Source of the DNA: Synechococcus sp. KORDI-52
Lineage (GTDB): Bacteria; Cyanobacteriota; Cyanobacteriia; PCC-6307; Cyanobiaceae
Assembly (NCBI RefSeq): GCF_000737595.1
Contig: NZ_CP006271.1
Location: forward strand, 558,001-622,000
Direction of reading: 5' to 3'
DNA length: 64,000 bases
Below are positions 23,718 to 46,150 of this stretch, in pieces; positions within the stretch are counted from its first letter, which is position 1; each line of letters starts with the position of its first letter. The notes under the pieces were generated by a model that saw nothing but the letters and a program-made list of their open reading frames with translations, was not told the DNA's origin and did no database searches. Made by a program: the position numbers and the translations under genes.

Positions 23718-23789
23718 GGGCGATTAGCTCAGCGGTAGAGCACCTCCCTTACAAGGAGATTGTCACTGGTTCGATCCCAGTATCGCCCA
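23718..23789 (+). tRNA. trnV: tRNA-Val (UAC anticodon)
   Basis: The 72-base cloverleaf has a 7-bp acceptor stem (GGGCGAT with ATCGCCC), D stem GCTC/GAGC, anticodon loop CTTACAA with anticodon TAC (reads GUA/GUG), and the T loop TTCGATC. The lower base pair of the anticodon stem (C with A) is mismatched, the other four are normal. A follows the acceptor stem as discriminator; CCA is not encoded. Confidence 0.95.
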
Positions 23790-23942: not shown

Positions 23943-24158
23943 ATGTGTGTAGAGGAGGTTCATGGAAACTCCTCTCTTCAGGCTTTCTGTAGCCGTGTTA
24001 ATTCTTCGGCAACCCCGGCCGATTATTTGTTTGGCTGCGTCTTGCTGGCTGTAATTTTTTTGTTGGTGTCCGCGTTTCTTTCCGTTCAGCAATATTCAAC
24101 AGGCGGAACCATTCAGATTCAGCACGCCGAATTTATTTATCGAGTGCGACACAGTTGA
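23943..24158 (+). CDS. Candidate small single-span membrane protein
   Basis: A 71-codon frame from ATG 23943 contains one clear transmembrane segment (about residues 27-49, DYLFGCVLLAVIFLLVSAFLS). AGGA stands four bases before the ATG, which is close. A competing start at 23962, with a good GAGGAGG, opens a different 30-codon frame, so the real N-terminus is open. No function can be given. It lies 154 bases after tRNA-Val in an AT-rich region. Confidence 0.4.
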   Translation: MCVEEVHGNSSLQAFCSRVNSSATPADYLFGCVLLAVIFLLVSAFLSVQQYSTGGTIQIQHAEFIYRVRHS

Positions 24159-24509
24159 GATTGTAGGCAGCGAGAAAGCCAATCGATGGCCTAAGAGCGT
24201 TTTTAAAAGTGTTTAAGCGTTTAATTTTAAGTATTAAGGAGGCTTTGATTGTTGCTGCTGATCGCATCAATTGTCTTGGTTGATTTTCGGTTAGCAAGGC
24301 TGGGTGCAGCTTCTCGCTCCTCATTTTTATCTGTTGCTGCTGCATTGTGTGGGGTCTGTGGATCTTGCCGGTGCTGAGCTTCGCTGCCGGTTGCGTGGTC
24401 TACGCCATTGTGGTTTTGCCAATGTAACCACATCTTTAGGAATTGAGGTTGAAAAATTTAGAGTTGACCAGAGTTCATTGAAAGGGAAGGAGAGGTCTGG
24501 CTTTCGTGC
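24159..24509. other. AT-rich gene-poor stretch after the small membrane ORF
   Basis: These 351 bases have lower GC than the flanks, with runs of T/A around 24190-24240. No frame here has convincing coding character. One unstarted plus-strand frame ending at a TAA near 24428 encodes a hydrophobic run (ILPVLSFAAGCVVYAIVVLP), which might be the remnant of a small membrane protein. No hairpin terminator or RNA gene was recognised. Confidence 0.35.
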
Positions 24510-24740
24510 ATGTTGTTAATGGTTCAGGGAAATATTGCCCAGGTGACGACAGGGCATGCTCTGACGGCATTGAAGGTCAGCCTTGGTGTGCTTGTTGCTT
24601 ATGTGGTGGCTAAAAAGATTCTCAGAGTTGATCGTTTTTGGAAGACGCTTGTCTTGCTTGCGGCAATTACGGCTGTAATTGATTTTTTAATTCACCCGAC
24701 GCACGTCGGTGAGGCCTGGTCTGAAGCTGTCTTGGCGTAG
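24510..24740 (+). CDS. Small membrane protein of unknown function
   Basis: The 76-residue frame begins at ATG 24510, with a second ATG at 24519 equally possible. It has two hydrophobic segments (about residues 22-36 and 45-60) separated by a basic KKILRVDRFWK loop, and ends in an acidic tail. Purine-rich GGAAGGAGAGG lies about 15-25 bases upstream. No family was recognised. It stands alone in the gene-poor region after tRNA-Val. Confidence 0.5.
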   Translation: MLLMVQGNIAQVTTGHALTALKVSLGVLVAYVVAKKILRVDRFWKTLVLLAAITAVIDFLIHPTHVGEAWSEAVLA

Positions 24741-24927
24741 GGGCAAGTGCCTTTGCAACGGTTGGTCATTTTATTGCAAATCCCTATCAAAAATTATGAG
24801 GTGCTAGCACTCTGAGCAGCCCTGTGATCTCAATCAAGATCGGTTGGGTGTTAACGCGGATCATTATTCATTGTGATTGGTTTGAGTGCCAACTTGTGAT
24901 CCGTTGTTTTGCGTTGTTGTTGGTTGG

Positions 24928-25395
24928 TTAGAGGGGCATTGGCGGACCCATGGATCCGGGATCCAAAATGACGCCTTGATTGACATAACCAATAATAATT
25001 TCTGCCCATGAGCGGCCTTTCTGAAGATCCTTTTTGACGCTCCATTCGATTTCTGCAATCTCTTGCTCAGGCAGGTTAAGTGCGGCAAGTAACTCGCGGT
25101 AAGCCTCGCGCTCTTGTGAGTTGATGTTCTCCTCTTCTGCTGTATTTTTTGAAACCCCAGCAACCAATCCTGCGATACGAGCTGCCAAGGCTTTGTCGCC
25201 AGGATTCTCAAGGCGTTGTGCAAGTTCAGTCAGGCTGGGGAGGTGATTCAAATCCATCGGCTCACCAGCGCTCAGGCCATGTCGGTTGGGAAGATCGAGG
25301 ATTAAATCTTTTTCTTCATCGGATATGGATCCATCGCTGAGTGCCATCACTTGGGCGATTGTGAGAAGTGTCGCGTCAATTGGTTTTGATTCCAT
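24928..25395 (-). CDS. TerB-like (tellurite resistance TerB domain) protein
   Basis: The 155-residue helical, acidic protein has the TerB/DjlA-like opening: ATLLTIAQVMALSDGSISDEEKDLILDL, where an acidic DGSISDEE turn follows a helix. The C-terminus has GRSWAEIIIGYVNQG. TerB-like domains are found in stress and membrane-associated proteins and may bind metal. Cytosolic; no signal peptide. It is an isolated gene in the region after tRNA-Val. The ATG at 25395 is the only sensible start. Confidence 0.65.
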   Translation of the reverse strand: MESKPIDATLLTIAQVMALSDGSISDEEKDLILDLPNRHGLSAGEPMDLNHLPSLTELAQRLENPGDKALAARIAGLVAGVSKNTAEEENINSQEREAYRELLAALNLPEQEIAEIEWSVKKDLQKGRSWAEIIIGYVNQGVILDPGSMGPPMPL

Positions 25396-25554
25396 TGGCT
25401 TTAATGAGGCTGTTTGTTTCTTCCAGACTGGCCCTCGCTTGCCCCAGCACCCATCAACTCAACGAATTTTGTTGGAAAAACTGACTTTTAATTGAGCCGT
25501 CTCCTCCCGTCTCATGCTCCAGGATGGCGGAATGGGTGACGGCCAAGCTGGTGG

Positions 25555-25815
25555 TTAGAAGCGCAAGCCGTGCGCCTTGCGAAGTCGATCATTGCTGACC
25601 AAGCACGTCCCCACATCAGGCTGAAGTGTGCTGGGTCGAAATTCAGTGTTCTCAAGAGGCTCAGTCGACTTCCCTCGCATCCAAACAAGTTGTCCGGTTG
25701 AAGCGTCACGTTTGCACTTCACCCACTCAGCAGCGTGCACCAGTGGAGCGCAAGAGATCAGCACTCCAACAATGACCAGCCAATGCGCTGAATGAGGGTT
25801 TGACATCTGGCTCAT
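25555..25815 (-). CDS. Small exported protein of unknown function
   Basis: The 86-residue frame begins with a typical signal peptide (HWLVIVGVLISCAPLVHAAEW, cleavage probably after AHA or HAA). The mature part is about 57 residues with two cysteines (KCKRD and GTCLV) that could form a disulfide, and basic ends. No family recognised. It would lie in the periplasm. It is on the same strand as the TerB-like gene, 159 bases upstream of it. Confidence 0.5.
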   Translation of the reverse strand: MSQMSNPHSAHWLVIVGVLISCAPLVHAAEWVKCKRDASTGQLVWMRGKSTEPLENTEFRPSTLQPDVGTCLVSNDRLRKAHGLRF

Positions 25816-26175
25816 TGAATTCCGGTGATGAGGTGATCAACTGCAGCAGCGCGTCGCGATGAGTGTTGCCGGCCCGATCGCCCGATCGAATCATTCGACT
25901 CTGATGGTGAAAACCTTGCTGCGTCAGCTGCACGTCCAATAAACCGAGCTTTCAGTCACAAGCCACCCTCCCCTGAGCTGCTGACGTGCAGGGCATGCCG
26001 TTGAAAGGGTGCTCGATCGGTCGTCAGGGCAGCCCTCAGCCTTCGTTCAAGGACGCATGGCGTTCATCCTGGTGCTCTGGCGGCGCCTACGGATGAACGG
26101 AGAAACTACCTTCTGCACTGGCTTGTTCAGCTGCCAGCATCTCTGCCATCCTCGCCATCAAGACAACGTTCAGGA
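25816..26175. other. Intergenic stretch without a convincing gene
   Basis: Short frames occur on both strands, but their translations look like shadows (rich in His, Arg and Cys, no hydrophobic periodicity). A short tandem-like GATCGCCCGATCG occurs near 25875. A 27-codon plus-strand frame starts at 25859 but lacks support. I see no RNA gene or terminator here. Confidence 0.4.
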
Positions 26176-41165: not shown

Positions 41166-41953
41166 TGAGGCGGTACTGGCGAACCCTGTGTCGCTTCTGG
41201 GGCACAGCCGTGGCGGTGCAGTTGGAATATCAGGTCAACGTCTTGATCGAGCTGCTGGCGGTTGTGATGAGCCTCAGCGGCAGCCTGTTTCTGCTTTCGT
41301 TGTTCTATGGCTCCAATCAGACGTTGGGGGGCTGGAGCTGGGCCCAGGCCCTGATGGTGCAAGGGCTTTATACGGTGTTCGACGGCATGGCCAGCACCTG
41401 GCTGCGCCCCAACCTCGGCGCGATCGTCACCCACGTGCGCGAGGGCACCCTGGATTTCGTGCTGCTCAAGCCGATCGACAGCCAATTCTGGTTGTCGCTT
41501 CGTACGCTGTCCCCAGCGGGGTTGCCGGAAATCTGCCTGGGGCTTGGGCTCCTGCTCTGGGGCAGTCGCCAGGCCGCTGTGGAGTTCAGCCTGTCCTCCG
41601 TTTTCATCGTGCTGGTGATGCTGCTGGCCGGAGGCTTGATCCTCTATTCGCTCTGGTTTCTGATCGCTGCCACCAGCATCTGGTTCGTCAAAACCTGGAA
41701 TGCCACCGAGGTGTTGCGGACGCTGTTGTCCTCCGGCCGTTATCCCCTCACCGCCTATCCACCAACCCTGCGCCTTGTGTTCACTGTGGTGCTGCCAGTG
41801 GCGTTTCTCACCACGGTGCCTGCCCAGGTGTTGCTCGGCGAGGCCGCCGTTCCGATGGTGTTGACTGGCTTGGGCTTGGCAGTGATGTTTTTTGCAGCGG
41901 CGCGGACTTTTTGGTTGTTTGCCCTGCGCTCATACACCTCAGCATCCAGTTGA
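41165..41953 (+). CDS. ABC-2 type permease subunit
   Basis: The 262-residue protein has about six membrane helices and the same family organisation as its neighbour: N-terminal basic helix (RRYWRTLCRFWGTAVAVQLEYQVN), then VMSLSGSLFLLSLFYG and a VREGTLDFVLLKPIDSQFWL loop. The ATG at 41165 overlaps the upstream stop as TGATG; a longer in-frame start inside the first permease is rejected. It completes a three-gene exporter of unknown substrate. Confidence 0.85.
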   Translation: MRRYWRTLCRFWGTAVAVQLEYQVNVLIELLAVVMSLSGSLFLLSLFYGSNQTLGGWSWAQALMVQGLYTVFDGMASTWLRPNLGAIVTHVREGTLDFVLLKPIDSQFWLSLRTLSPAGLPEICLGLGLLLWGSRQAAVEFSLSSVFIVLVMLLAGGLILYSLWFLIAATSIWFVKTWNATEVLRTLLSSGRYPLTAYPPTLRLVFTVVLPVAFLTTVPAQVLLGEAAVPMVLTGLGLAVMFFAAARTFWLFALRSYTSASS

Positions 41954-42101
41954 GAGGACCTGCTAGGCGGATTGACGGTGAAGAACTGGAGGCAGCCCAT
42001 CCTTTAAGGGGGGCGTGCCTGAGCGATTGAAGGGTCGGCATCAAGTGAACCTCTTGTCGTGGATGTGCTTTTGTGTGCGGTATGCGATAGATCGAGCCAA
42101 T

Positions 42102-42118
42102 TCAATCGTTCCGATTGA
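42102..42118 (-). terminator. Possible short hairpin after the GGDEF-EAL gene
   Basis: TCAATCG (42102-42108) and its reverse complement (42112-42118) flank a 3-base loop, 28 bases after the minus-strand stop at 42146. The stem is only 7 bp and has no U run, so this is a weak candidate. Confidence 0.3.
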
Positions 42119-42145
42119 GGTTCAGGGTTGAAATCAATGGGATAA

Positions 42146-44527
42146 TTAATTTTGTCGGCAGCTGCCGTCTGCATTGAAGAGGTAGCCCTGTGCATATTCG
42201 CATCCCAATGATTCGAGAATGCGTTTCTGCTCGAATGTCTCAACTCCTTCTCCGATGAGAAACATGTTGAAGGCTTTGGACATGTCGATAATTGATTTGA
42301 CCAATTCACTCCCTGACTCTTTGTTTAAATTTTTTGTGTATGAGCGATCAAGTTTTAGGCAGCTAAATGGTAATTTCCTCAAAAGCTCGATTGACGAATA
42401 TCCCGTTCCGAAGTCATCAAGATAAAAGCTGACTCCATGGTCTTTTAATTTTGACATATGTGTCTTCGTGGTTTGCAGATCCTGAAGGAGTGCTGTTTCT
42501 GTGATTTCGATGCGGATCAACCCAGGGTTGATCGAACGATCTTCCAGGTTTCTGGTGAAAGTGTCAGGAAAGTTTGGTTCCAGGAATTGAAGTGGGCTGA
42601 TGTTGATTGATATGTAGGTCTTGTTGCCAGGGCTTTGCTCTTTAATCTTGCTCTTGATATTGTCAAGGATTGATGTTGTGAGCAGACCGATAATGCCTGA
42701 TTCTTCTGCGCATTCAATTAGATAGGGAATCGGCTTTTTGAGTGCTGGGCATCGAAACAGAGCTTCATGTCCCACAACGGTTGGGTGATGACTTAAAGCA
42801 TTTCCACCCGAAAGTTCGACAATCGGTTGTAGGAGCAATCCAGTTTCTCCCGTTTCAATCATGTCTCTTAATTTTTCGGACGTATTTGCTTTTGACATAA
42901 TGGCCGATGCCATTCCTTTCTCGTAAATGAAATAACGGTTGCGGCCGATTTCTTTGGCCTTATACAGAGCTATATCGGCTTTATCTAAAAGTGTTGATGC
43001 AGATTCTGAATTGGGGCTATCCAAGCAAATTCCGATGCTGCAGGTGTTGTTGGATCTGCATGCTTCAAGTTGATAGGGATGAGTAAGTCGTAAAAGCAAT
43101 TTTTCTCCCATTGCTTTCACCCTCTCCATCACCAAGGATGAATCTTCCATAGGAAAGCGTGTGATGATAACGAATTCATCGCCTCCAAGTCGGGCGAGAA
43201 AGTCAGTAGGGCGCACACATGACTTGAGGCGATTGGCAAATTCAATGAGGAATTGATCTCCCGTGGTGTGGCCATGGGAGTCATTTAAAAATTTAAAGTT
43301 ATCAACGTCGATCATGAAAACAGCAAGTCGATACTCTTTTCGCAGCAATCCTTTCGTTGATCTAGAGATTTCCTCCTCAAAAGCGGAACGGTTCATTAAG
43401 CCTGTAAGTGTGTCGTGGAATGCAAGGTGTTGGATGCTTTTTTGTTGCTCTTTCTCGCGAGTAATATCATTGGCCACAAGGGCAACGACGCTGGGTTTTT
43501 GATTAATGGCCTCAGTGACGACGGCTTCTATCTTTAGGAAGCATTCCTTTTTTGATCTTGTTTTAACGGCTTTAATTTCTGTCCCTATGGTTGAGTTGGT
43601 TTCTAGATTGCAAGTTTGATTACTCACATTGTTGAGAAATTTTCGAAATCTTCTGTGATCCTCTGGTGCTATAAACTGTTTCCACCATTCATTTGCCTCG
43701 CTCGGTTGATGTTGCTGCATCAGTGCCGTCGTGCTTGCAGAGATCTCCAGCAACATTCTCATCTTTAGCGAGAGTATCGATCGGTCATTGCTGATCTCCC
43801 ACTCCCACCATCCGTCATTGGTGCCTTCAAAGGCTGAGCGCGTGCGTAACTGCGCTTCCTCAAGATCATCGATCAAGCTTGATATCTTTGAAAGCTTCTC
43901 TTTTTCACGTTTTAGCTGGTTCCTGCTGGTTAGAGCAAGTGCTCCAAAAGTTGGGATAAAAATTGTCCCAAATGCACTGAACAAAACCAACTCAATATTT
44001 CTCAGGTTTTTGCGATCGTCTCCGCTTCCGAGTGAATGTCCAGTCAGTGTTCCCAATTGAATATCCCGGTTGCTGATCAAGGCCCGCCCTGTGAAATTCT
44101 CTTTTTTAATGTCTGCAACGTCGGTGGGCATGTCTTCAAGACTGCATTCCGCGGGAACCCTGTTGTAGATTACCTCTGGTTTTTGATCTCTACTGGTTCG
44201 AGTGGCTATTGACAAGCTCTTGCCCTTGTTGTCTGTGACGACAAGGCAGGTGATGCTCGGATTTTCTCGCAGAAGGTTGATGAGATTATTGTCGATATTC
44301 GCGTAATCTTTTAGCAATACTGGGTTTTCAAGTTGTATTGCGATTCTATTGATTACATTCTGAAAGTCAATTTTTTGCTTTTTTTGCAATTGATGTCCAA
44401 GCCACGCATCAGATCCGATTGCGGCGATTGAAAGGCAAACGATTGGTATTGTAAATGGAGTTGATCTCCAGATAAAATTTTTGCATCTAACAGATAGCTG
44501 TTTGATGTTTATATTATGGCGAATCAT
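42146..44527 (-). CDS. Membrane-anchored GGDEF-EAL cyclic-di-GMP protein with PAS-like domain
   Basis: The 793-residue protein has an N-terminal helix (about residues 24-42), a periplasmic stretch to about 178, a second helix (about 179-200), a PAS-like region (about 230-355), then GGDEF (448-452) with the inhibitory-site RxxD as RPTD at 439-442, and an EAL domain with E588, N642, E674 and E677, D704-D705 (DDFGTGYSS), K725, E760. Both catalytic sets look intact, so it may make and degrade c-di-GMP. Base composition is AT-rich compared with the flanks. The ATG at 44527 overlaps the lipoprotein stop by 4 bases, so the lipoprotein is likely its periplasmic input. Confidence 0.88.
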   Translation of the reverse strand: MIRHNINIKQLSVRCKNFIWRSTPFTIPIVCLSIAAIGSDAWLGHQLQKKQKIDFQNVINRIAIQLENPVLLKDYANIDNNLINLLRENPSITCLVVTDNKGKSLSIATRTSRDQKPEVIYNRVPAECSLEDMPTDVADIKKENFTGRALISNRDIQLGTLTGHSLGSGDDRKNLRNIELVLFSAFGTIFIPTFGALALTSRNQLKREKEKLSKISSLIDDLEEAQLRTRSAFEGTNDGWWEWEISNDRSILSLKMRMLLEISASTTALMQQHQPSEANEWWKQFIAPEDHRRFRKFLNNVSNQTCNLETNSTIGTEIKAVKTRSKKECFLKIEAVVTEAINQKPSVVALVANDITREKEQQKSIQHLAFHDTLTGLMNRSAFEEEISRSTKGLLRKEYRLAVFMIDVDNFKFLNDSHGHTTGDQFLIEFANRLKSCVRPTDFLARLGGDEFVIITRFPMEDSSLVMERVKAMGEKLLLRLTHPYQLEACRSNNTCSIGICLDSPNSESASTLLDKADIALYKAKEIGRNRYFIYEKGMASAIMSKANTSEKLRDMIETGETGLLLQPIVELSGGNALSHHPTVVGHEALFRCPALKKPIPYLIECAEESGIIGLLTTSILDNIKSKIKEQSPGNKTYISINISPLQFLEPNFPDTFTRNLEDRSINPGLIRIEITETALLQDLQTTKTHMSKLKDHGVSFYLDDFGTGYSSIELLRKLPFSCLKLDRSYTKNLNKESGSELVKSIIDMSKAFNMFLIGEGVETFEQKRILESLGCEYAQGYLFNADGSCRQN

Positions 44528-45420
44528 TGGAGATATTGTTGCAGATTAAGCTCTTTTATGCTTGCGTAGTCTCTTGTGTAATTCGCTGGAATTGGATGAG
44601 TTAGTTGTGCACTCCTCAGCATTGAGGCATGCCTATCGTCTTGTCTTAGGTTGAGCCAGGCTTGTTGGATGTCTTGAACTTCACTGTTTGGAAGTTTTGT
44701 GGATGCTGAGAATGGGTGTGCTGGAAATTCCAGGGTTTCGGCAATAATTGTTAATTGTGATCGAAGATTCTCGTCTTCGCGCTGGTATGTCAAGAACACT
44801 CCGCCTCCAATGATGCTTGGATCAGTGGCTACGATTCGGTATACATTCTGATGCGTTTTGACATAGCGGACTGGTAAATCAATGCCATTGATGTCGAGAT
44901 AGCTCTTATTCAGCAGTGATGCTCCAAAGGCGGTGCCAAAAGGTGCTACAAATGTTTCATTTTCTATGTCGCTTAACTGTTTAATTCCGCTGCTTTTGTT
45001 CGCCACAATGATTCCCTTGATGTGGCTTTTCTCGTCTCTTATGATGGGTTCATATTTGTCATTATGCTTTGATTGTTGAAAAGGGCACATGAAAGTGTAA
45101 TCAATTTCTTCGGCTTCAATGGCGGCTAGATAGTCTACATTCGATTTGTGATGCTTGATCTCAAAGCAAACATTTGTTTGTTGCCCTATTTTGGTCAAAA
45201 GTGGCCAATATATTGAATGTATATCTGATGCCGTTAATCGGGGAATTGCCGCAAATATTCGTCGTTGGGCTTGAGTTGATGAACTGCCAGCGCAGTCCTG
45301 CTGTTTGATGAAGGTGTCTTTTTTGGTCTTGGATGAGAGTTGCTCATGTGTCGGCTGAGAGTTGTTCGACTTGCAACTTAAAAGGGCAAGCAAAACGATC
45401 AATGAAAGAACTATTTTCAA
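44524..45420 (-). CDS. PhnD-like periplasmic solute-binding lipoprotein
   Basis: The 298-residue protein has a lipoprotein signal ending LLALLSC (C16) and the type II periplasmic binding fold of PhnD/phosphate-phosphonate binding proteins: FAAIPRLTASDIHSIYWPLL, EIDYTFMCPFQQ, FVAPFGTAFGASLLNK and VATDPSIIGGGVF. No ABC permease or ATPase is next to it. Instead it overlaps the GGDEF-EAL gene by 4 bases, suggesting that its ligand controls the membrane protein. The ligand may be phosphonate, phosphite or some other small anion. Low GC like its partner. Confidence 0.85.
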   Translation of the reverse strand: MKIVLSLIVLLALLSCKSNNSQPTHEQLSSKTKKDTFIKQQDCAGSSSTQAQRRIFAAIPRLTASDIHSIYWPLLTKIGQQTNVCFEIKHHKSNVDYLAAIEAEEIDYTFMCPFQQSKHNDKYEPIIRDEKSHIKGIIVANKSSGIKQLSDIENETFVAPFGTAFGASLLNKSYLDINGIDLPVRYVKTHQNVYRIVATDPSIIGGGVFLTYQREDENLRSQLTIIAETLEFPAHPFSASTKLPNSEVQDIQQAWLNLRQDDRHASMLRSAQLTHPIPANYTRDYASIKELNLQQYLQ

Positions 45421-46150
45421 TTGATCACTGCTTCTTTGTGGAATCTAGCTCGGTTTGGGGATGACCAGTATTGGATGGTTGTCTTTTTTTAGGGCTATCC
45501 CACCTGTGCTCTCTTTTTTTGTGGGAGGTGCAATGCTCTCTTCAGTGGTGCTTCGGCTGTTTGATTGTGCTGATTCAGTCTTGGCTTGTGGATCTGCTGG
45601 ATCTTTTGCGCACTCCGTTTGGAGCGCTTCTTTTCATTCCGATCTATGCCTTGTGGGTCACTCTGCTGCTGCCGGGTGTCTGGGCTTCGATGCTGGCGGG
45701 GGTTTTGTATGGGCCTTGGCTTGGTAGCGCCGTTGTCTTCTTCGCTGCCTGCCTGGGGGCTGAAGTGGTGTTCCTGTTAGGTCGTCACTGGTTGCAGGGT
45801 TGGGTGCGCCAGCGGCTGACGCAATGGCCGAAGCTTCATGCAGTTGAGCAGGCTGTAAATCAGGAAGGCTTGAAGTTGGTTCTGTTGACCCGCTTGTCAC
45901 CCGCCTTTCCCTTCTCGTTGCTGAATCTGGCCTATGGCCTCAGCGCTGTGTCCTTACGGGATTACAGTATTGGCTTGATCGGGATTCTTCCGGGCACGGT
46001 TCTGTTTTGCGGGCTCGGCGCCCTGGCCGGTGACGTTGCGCGATTTAATGATGTCCTTGCCGGTGAGGCTGATGGCTTCACCTGGGGTCTTCGTGTGATG
46101 GGTGTCGTGGCCACCTTGGCGGTGGTCTGGCTGGTTGGTCGTGCCGCCCG

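Follow-up and report, generated by a model that had tools for sequence, protein, structure and literature searches.

A lipoprotein gene and a GGDEF-EAL enzyme gene that overlap in the genome of Synechococcus sp. KORDI-52 probably encode a bipartite periplasmic receptor, acquired as a cassette and acting as a switch for cyclic diguanosine monophosphate (c-di-GMP), with an NfrB-like protein of the same genome as the best candidate effector. The window, the whole stretch of DNA that was analysed, comprises 64,000 nucleotides (contig NZ_CP006271.1, positions 558,001 to 622,000), and coordinates refer to it unless a contig or locus is named. The locus is made up as follows:

42146–44527, minus strand: gene of the GGDEF-EAL membrane receptor enzyme (793 aa, ATG start), recognised by PF00990, PF00563, motifs and transmembrane segments
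42146–44527, minus strand: predicted architecture of the enzyme, in the order transmembrane segment, LapD-like periplasmic domain, transmembrane segment, linker or PAS-like region, GGDEF, EAL
43832–44527, minus strand: transmembrane and periplasmic sensor region of the enzyme (residues 1–232), a domain common to histidine-kinase and GGDEF-only partners elsewhere
44524–45420, minus strand: lipoprotein gene of the PhnD-fold periplasmic-binding type, a candidate ligand sensor (298 aa, TTG start; PF12974 and AlphaFold model)
44524–44527, minus strand: 4-bp overlap between the end of the lipoprotein gene and the start of the enzyme gene, from the open reading frames (ORFs) and the sequence
41955–45527: AT-rich insert of about 3.57 kb with both genes, at whose edges similarity to sister loci breaks

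An earlier note on this DNA had described a PhnD-like lipoprotein gene overlapping a membrane GGDEF-EAL gene by 4 bases, and both ORFs bear this out at the coordinates above. The lipoprotein matches the Pfam family Phosphonate-bd (PF12974) with 109.7 bits (cut-off 27, E = 2e-31), carries a lipobox, LLSC, as read by eye, and gave an AlphaFold model with a predicted local distance difference test (pLDDT) score of 87.7. The enzyme matches EAL (165.7 bits, E = 1.4e-48) and GGDEF (149.2 bits, E = 1.2e-43) far above the curated cut-offs. Two hydrophobic segments (residues 25–43 and 180–198) bracket its presumed periplasmic region, and the model of the sensor region (pLDDT 83.4) places an alpha/beta domain between long helices. 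An inhibitory I-site stands five residues ahead of an intact GGDEF motif (RPTD-x5-GGDEF), and the EAL signature set is likewise intact (EALFR, INISP, EITET, LDDFGTGYSS, LKLDRS, GEGVET, AQGYLF); these motifs we take to be the catalytic ones. The statement that both catalytic sets and the RPTD site are intact thus stands at the level of sequence, and the enzyme, a putative bifunctional GGDEF-EAL protein, looks capable of both making and destroying c-di-GMP. The note was also right that the lipoprotein has no ATP-binding cassette (ABC) partners: the nearby ABC-2 genes (39394 to about 41954) lie on the opposite, plus strand and are kept in sister genomes that lack the pair, and no linked importer genes of a PhnD/PtxB/HtxB transport set were found at the window locus.

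A link between the two genes, as the note had supposed, is strongly supported, as their linkage is conserved and both parts diverge together. Among 300 Cyanobiaceae genomes, lipoprotein relatives occur in 15 (KORDI-52 included) at 16 loci, and a same-strand GGDEF gene lies downstream at 15 of these, directly adjacent in 13, after 232 bp in L036 and after about 1.4 kb in L038. At the sixteenth locus (L043), the lipoprotein gene is frameshifted and the contig stops within the sensor domain of the partner. GGDEF-EAL proteins account for four of the 16 partners. KORDI-52 itself harbours a second pair, whose lipoprotein and enzyme are 39% and 42% identical to those of the window. In a reverse search with the sensor region of the window enzyme, strong matches (E < 1e-50) were confined to pairs (the two of KORDI-52, G131 and G243), and five more genomes gave weak matches to the PAS-like part.

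Outside the family, a profile scan with one genome per species returned 351 lipoprotein relatives, the best 80 of which were kept and include freshwater-type Betaproteobacteria, Methylococcaceae and Nitrospirae; a single-protein scan of genome contigs with the lipoprotein alone had given 34 pattern matches and no relative. Six of the 80 loci were without a usable partner. The 74 downstream genes (four of them from Cyanobiaceae, three of which repeat loci among the 16) encode HisKA in 45 cases, HATPase_c in 45, GGDEF in 18 and EAL in one, together with at least three unrelated proteins (L090, L127, L141) and one other binding protein (L072). No ABC-transporter family is found among the 25 families in these partners.

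A sensor profile built from 14 Cyanobiaceae partners recognises, at E < 1e-5, 42 of the 47 partners with kinase motifs and 14 of the 15 with GGDEF motifs, and 65 control ORFs taken from KORDI-52 gave no match; four duplicate loci (L071, L075, L084, L134) were excluded from this count and from the set of 91 lipoproteins. On a lipoprotein tree built by a quick method, with 10 of the 91 rows lacking an output label, the output switches at least six times between kinase and GGDEF, and 10 times if four classes are distinguished. Distances between lipoproteins correlate with those between partner sensor regions (r = 0.894 for 74 pairs, 17 of the 91 lipoproteins not being included), and none of 2000 permutations gave a correlation as high. 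The best fold match of the periplasmic domain of the enzyme is the LapD orthologue CdgS9 (4u64; E = 1e-5, TM 0.39/0.66), and CHASE8 and LapD_MoxY_N matched weakly in 5 and 4 of 30 partner rows, respectively.

The window pair is thus predicted to be a receptor of the XAC2383–XAC2382 and NspS–MbaA kind, with swapped outputs among its relatives. XAC2383 and XAC2382 reportedly form a receptor pair of binding protein and diguanylate cyclase, published in 2018 in J Biol Chem. XAC2383 is listed as PF12974 in a passage of PMC10942540. In both cases a PF12974 binding protein accompanies a GGDEF-type enzyme, and among structural matches of the window lipoprotein VIA-align places XAC2383 at the top (Z 23.9, 247 residues, root-mean-square deviation 2.7 Å), barely over HtxB (22.8) and followed by PtxB and ArrX. 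In contrast to the window enzyme, which adds EAL, XAC2382 is named a diguanylate cyclase, and the sequence relation is weak. In the polyamine receptor NspS–MbaA, according to PMC8967002, a periplasmic binding protein governs a membrane enzyme that makes or degrades c-di-GMP. The window shares with it the combination of a binding protein and a membrane c-di-GMP enzyme. NspS belongs to a polyamine-binding family, whereas the window lipoprotein belongs to PF12974.

AioX and ArrX are described, in part of PMC5908839, as PhnD-like proteins that serve sensing and not transport, within aioXSR and arrXSR modules. The window lipoprotein resembles them as a PhnD-like sensor, and ArrX is its nearest solved relative by sequence profile (E = 1.6e-18), with PtxB, AioX and PhnD also near. 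The output of AioS and ArrS is a kinase, however, and the oxyanion pocket is largely replaced in the window lipoprotein. LapD, whose periplasmic domain resembles that of the enzyme in fold, has degenerate GGDEF and EAL motifs, unlike the intact ones found here, and the enzyme falls below the NCBIfam LapD equivalog cut-off (98.4 bits, cut-off 1020). One paper states that binding proteins can activate diguanylate cyclases or phosphodiesterases. According to PMC8846402, SBP_bac_3 was the sole member of the periplasmic-binding-protein clan to have been studied in c-di-GMP networks. In the open-licence literature, we found no paper joining PhnD, GGDEF, c-di-GMP and periplasmic sensing.

It is more likely that Synechococcus sp. 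KORDI-52 gained the pair as a putative two-gene cassette, and less likely that all its sisters lost it. GC content is 0.43–0.44 in 42001–45000 versus 0.62–0.67 in the 5 kb that adjoin it on the left and the 4 kb that begin at 46001, and GC content at third codon positions is 0.41–0.45 in the pair versus 0.80–0.86 in three flanking genes, so that both measures agree with the earlier description of an AT-rich pair within a GC-rich region; the acquisition that it pointed to is backed by an empty site in sister loci. Flanks were compared with 25 sister loci, 22 of which have the ABC-2 permease gene and the TVP38 gene both present and adjacent, with at most 123 bp between the matches; of the remaining three, L048 is short, L069, the second and diverged copy within its genome, shows no ABC-2 match, and L051 (genome G021) has a different gene beside TVP38. 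On the left, DNA similarity to the sister loci ends at 41951–41955; on the right, it returns at 45528 in one row and at 45570–45574 in 15 of the 25, in no row later than 45633, the edge at 45528 being set by eye from the common GTGCAATGCTC. No direct repeat joins the two edges of the insert as a transposon would leave. The insert has no other recognised gene, its remaining listed ORFs being small and outside the family scan.

Within the genus set of 34 genomes (33 sisters, 18 of them at least 90% complete; GGDEF and EAL counted at E up to 1e-5), the lipoprotein is present in one, that of the window. A short, weakly resolved gene tree of the genus (3 of 20 inner branches starred) places this genome inside the main genus clade (89/100) and the empty-site genomes outside; because of this nesting, gain is likelier than repeated loss. 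At L051, the other gene beside TVP38 (L051:2110–3609) stands where the ABC-2 permease gene should be, and the junction may therefore accept further inserts. The first part of the TVP38 ORF (45471–45560) belongs to the insert and is missing from most sisters, and the true start of this ORF is therefore probably at or downstream of 45528.

The pair seems to be part of a larger imported c-di-GMP circuit that includes a sugar-coat machine. A 2014 review of 83 finished cyanobacterial genomes names only Prochlorococcus, some Synechococcus and UCYN-A as being without c-di-GMP domains (PMC4284465). GGDEF and EAL each occur in one of the 34 genus genomes, again that of the window, GGDEF with 9 matches in 8 genes and EAL with 10 matches in 9 genes or remnants; across the family, 110 of the 300 genomes have GGDEF. 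The scarcity of c-di-GMP proteins claimed earlier therefore applies to the genus and not to this genome with its 8 GGDEF genes. Seven of these lie at 0.72–0.73 and 2.036–2.061 Mb, six at a GC content of 0.40–0.46 and a split one at 0.53, and the eighth is the window enzyme. Two further features of the genome matter here:

contig 2,008,158–2,013,707 (L026:5159–10708): nfrB-nfrA-ybcH-like operon of overlapping genes, with a truncated EAL gene just downstream
contig 2,056,546–2,058,935 (L028:13547–15936): third pair, in which an NMT1-like lipoprotein gene, its lipobox read by eye, shares 4 bp with a GGDEF gene

As candidate target of c-di-GMP, we propose the exopolysaccharide machine encoded by the first of these. 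Its synthase, which we call nfrB-like because the score is under the equivalog cut-off, reaches 954.6 bits (E = 3.7e-287) and contains the MshEN c-di-GMP motif (NF053729, 63.1 bits, cut-off 38; PF05157, 25.5 bits, cut-off 23.1), with both key glycines present by eye; the operon also encodes an NfrA C-terminal domain and a YbcH-type DUF4434 protein. Escherichia coli nfrBA-ybcH is proposed, in passages of two papers, to make a c-di-GMP-activated exopolysaccharide (PMC8669469, PMC8669472). Gene order (nfrB-nfrA-ybcH), overlaps, MshEN domain and key glycines agree between the two, whereas the host here is a cyanobacterium and the nfrB-like score is below the equivalog cut-off, which is reached in none of the seven family genomes with a match. 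All seven of these (of 300) have GGDEF and three have the lipoprotein (Fisher tests, p = 8e-4 and 0.003; without KORDI-52, 0.002 and 0.03), the tests assuming the same 300 genomes in all three counts and leaving kinship uncorrected. A search for PilZ as effector gave one match, below the cut-off. That a complete foreign circuit was gained (three receptors coupled to binding proteins, additional cyclases and phosphodiesterases, and a surface polysaccharide of the NfrB type), with one lipoprotein re-tuned to a non-oxyanion ligand, is a tentative proposal to which we give slightly less than an even chance.

The AioX pocket consists of Tyr88, Cys106, Tyr131, Ser161, Ser163, His192 and Asp210 according to part of PMC5908839, and was carried onto the lipoprotein family through the ArrX and PtxB alignments. 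The window equivalents are N94, C112, I134, A164, G166, H190 and G205: two of the seven are as in AioX, namely the pocket histidine, which is kept, and a private cysteine, and the other five are replaced. In the same order, the commonest residues of the family are I, N, L, A, A/G, H and G. Among the 90 other rows, 77 have Ala and 11 have Ser at position 164, all have His190, and most have other residues in place of both pocket tyrosines and the aspartate; nearly all printed rows carry Ala or Gly at position 166. With two of seven residues, the window protein falls outside the oxyanion-binding AioX/ArrX/PhnD sub-family by this pocket comparison, and since most of the family is without the Ser-x-Ser that holds the oxyanion, and without the tyrosines and the aspartate, the ligand is probably not a simple oxyanion.

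The window lipoprotein has in addition diverged on its own. It differs at six columns where all 90 other lipoproteins agree (V59I, F97Y, E98L, N112C, Y114F, L134I), and near-invariant ones are changed as well, such as P162G and N163T; the patterns used in the scan for relatives (NPYH, TH[SQ]NVYR) bias conservation counts at the columns concerned, although NPYH is held by all 14 Cyanobiaceae relatives, which were found by similarity and are free of this bias. Two of the six, 112 and 134, correspond to pocket positions, and the other changed invariant positions appear to be close, in sequence, to pocket positions or to the conserved VPQ. Compared with its sister L030, the lipoprotein shows 61 versus 19 private changes (outgroup L002, p = 3e-6), or 48 versus 20 and 51 versus 21 with L032 and L070 as outgroups (both p < 0.001), and its end branch is 1.16 against a median of 0.23. 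The partner enzyme is not accelerated (58 versus 74, p = 0.16), its EAL part being if anything slower (12 versus 24, p = 0.046). Because the lipoprotein alone is accelerated and six family-invariant residues are changed, its ligand has probably shifted, and a re-tuned ligand site would explain the divergence better than general decay.

In the model that we favour, the PhnD-fold lipoprotein would bind a small periplasmic molecule, probably not an oxyanion, and, once closed on it, would dock on the LapD-like periplasmic domain of its GGDEF-EAL partner. Docking would shift this enzyme between synthesis and hydrolysis of c-di-GMP, much as NspS acts on MbaA (PMC8967002), and c-di-GMP would then act on the NfrB-like synthase; since the enzyme has both motif sets, the lipoprotein most likely acts as a switch. 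Several points weigh against this model. Foldseek ranks PtxB first and XAC2383 only third among the fold matches of the lipoprotein, and the match to XAC2383 by sequence is weak (hmmsearch E = 0.0011 over 60 profile positions). The sensor region of the window enzyme has no Pfam match of its own, and its fold match to LapD is modest. Mirrored distances are in part due to shared species history, and the reverse search, which misses GGDEF-only partners, is weakly sensitive and tells little about orphan receptors. Ligand binding could be lost through the changes at family-invariant positions. The nfrB-like protein misses the NCBIfam NfrB cut-off of 1170, and by contig numbering about 1.4 Mb separates its operon from the pair, other genes for cyclases and phosphodiesterases being closer to the operon. 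Finally, the physical interaction, the ligand, the direction of the response and NfrB as target are inferred.

Three other explanations compete with this receptor model. The lipoprotein could be losing its function as part of a decaying import, leaving the enzyme unregulated or served by the lipoprotein of the second pair; its long end branch, its excess of private changes over L030 and the altered family-invariant columns are what such decay would leave, but we regard it as unlikely, since the ORF is intact, the 4-bp overlap is retained, the fold is predicted well, His190, GGG205–207, THQNVYR and AHPFSA are kept and the partner shows no acceleration. Slightly less probable still is an oxyanion-controlled c-di-GMP switch, in which the lipoprotein would bind phosphonate, phosphite or an arsenic oxyanion like PtxB, PhnD, AioX and ArrX. 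Membership of PF12974, the four nearest solved profile relatives, the sensory role described for AioX and ArrX in part of PMC5908839, the retained His190 and the serine at the Ser161 position in 11 of the 90 other rows speak for it, as does the private Cys112, which aligns with the ArrX cysteine equivalent to the arsenite-binding Cys106 of AioX. Against this, the equivalents of Ser161, Ser163, Tyr88, Tyr131 and Asp210 are all replaced, and the lipoprotein scores 31.8 bits with the PhnD equivalog TIGR03431, far from the cut-off of 261.1. The control by phosphonate, phosphite or arsenate suggested in the earlier note is hence not upheld, and a reading of Cys112 as an arsenite ligand was retained as a rival only, the other pocket residues being absent.

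Sensing by LapD-type and Cache-type domains need not involve a binding protein. The enzyme might accordingly perceive a ligand directly through its own periplasmic domain, the two genes being neighbours only because they travelled in one cassette, an idea that the lack of any other recognised gene in the insert would suit. We consider it very improbable in view of the linkage at 15 of 16 Cyanobiaceae loci and in other phyla with different outputs, and of the mirrored divergence.

If a complete foreign circuit was gained as proposed, a planktonic cell would possess a sticky coat switched by outside signals. With eight GGDEF genes, nine genes or remnants for EAL and its nfrB-like effector on a c-di-GMP-free background, the strain amounts to a natural test of what the gain of a second messenger does for a cell. 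In the lipoprotein family, the periplasmic parts stay recognisable while the output swaps between kinase, cyclase and cyclase-phosphodiesterase, and the ligand of one member, once found, would inform many of the 351 relatives.

Neighbouring genes were scanned for hints to that ligand, covering one upstream gene at 42 of 60 loci and the next downstream gene at 53 of 57, with opposite-strand upstream genes and some near-duplicates left out. Upstream neighbours are diverse, with IMS DNA polymerase in 9 of 42. Of the 53 downstream neighbours 10 encode an HD_5 domain, as do 3 of the 42 upstream ones, with receiver domains where checked singly (L092, L122, L133), which suggests that c-di-GMP hydrolysis is a further output of some kinase-type members. 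The kinase-type relatives L092, L101, L122, L133 and L139 adjoin genes with HD_5 (HD-GYP type) domains or motifs; a strict HD-GYP motif scan picked out only 4 of 47 kinase loci. In two Vulcanococcus-type loci, a GMC oxidoreductase gene overlaps the lipoprotein gene by 4 bp (L033:8206–9804, assigned by Pfam, and L034:6164–7762), the sole clue that the neighbouring genes gave and a possible hint to the ligand.

Elsewhere in the genome, two GGDEF-EAL genes flank DyP-peroxidase-like and cytochrome-P450-like genes at contig 722,282–732,644 (L029:5283–15645), a region that also holds two genes without Pfam matches, all at a GC content of 0.43–0.46. The split GGDEF gene occupies two frames at contig 2,038,955–2,039,427 (L027:15761–16297 and following), and a remnant of a further EAL gene, interrupted by several stops, is found at 366 kb. 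A phycobilisome linker gene is present as well. An AT-rich patatin-like phospholipase gene (L026:13128–14387) gave a weak match to a CBASS effector lipase (39.1 bits, cut-off 200). In the window itself, a second AT-rich stretch (24001–26000, GC 0.46–0.53) follows right after a tRNA-Val gene (23718–23789) and is possibly another island.

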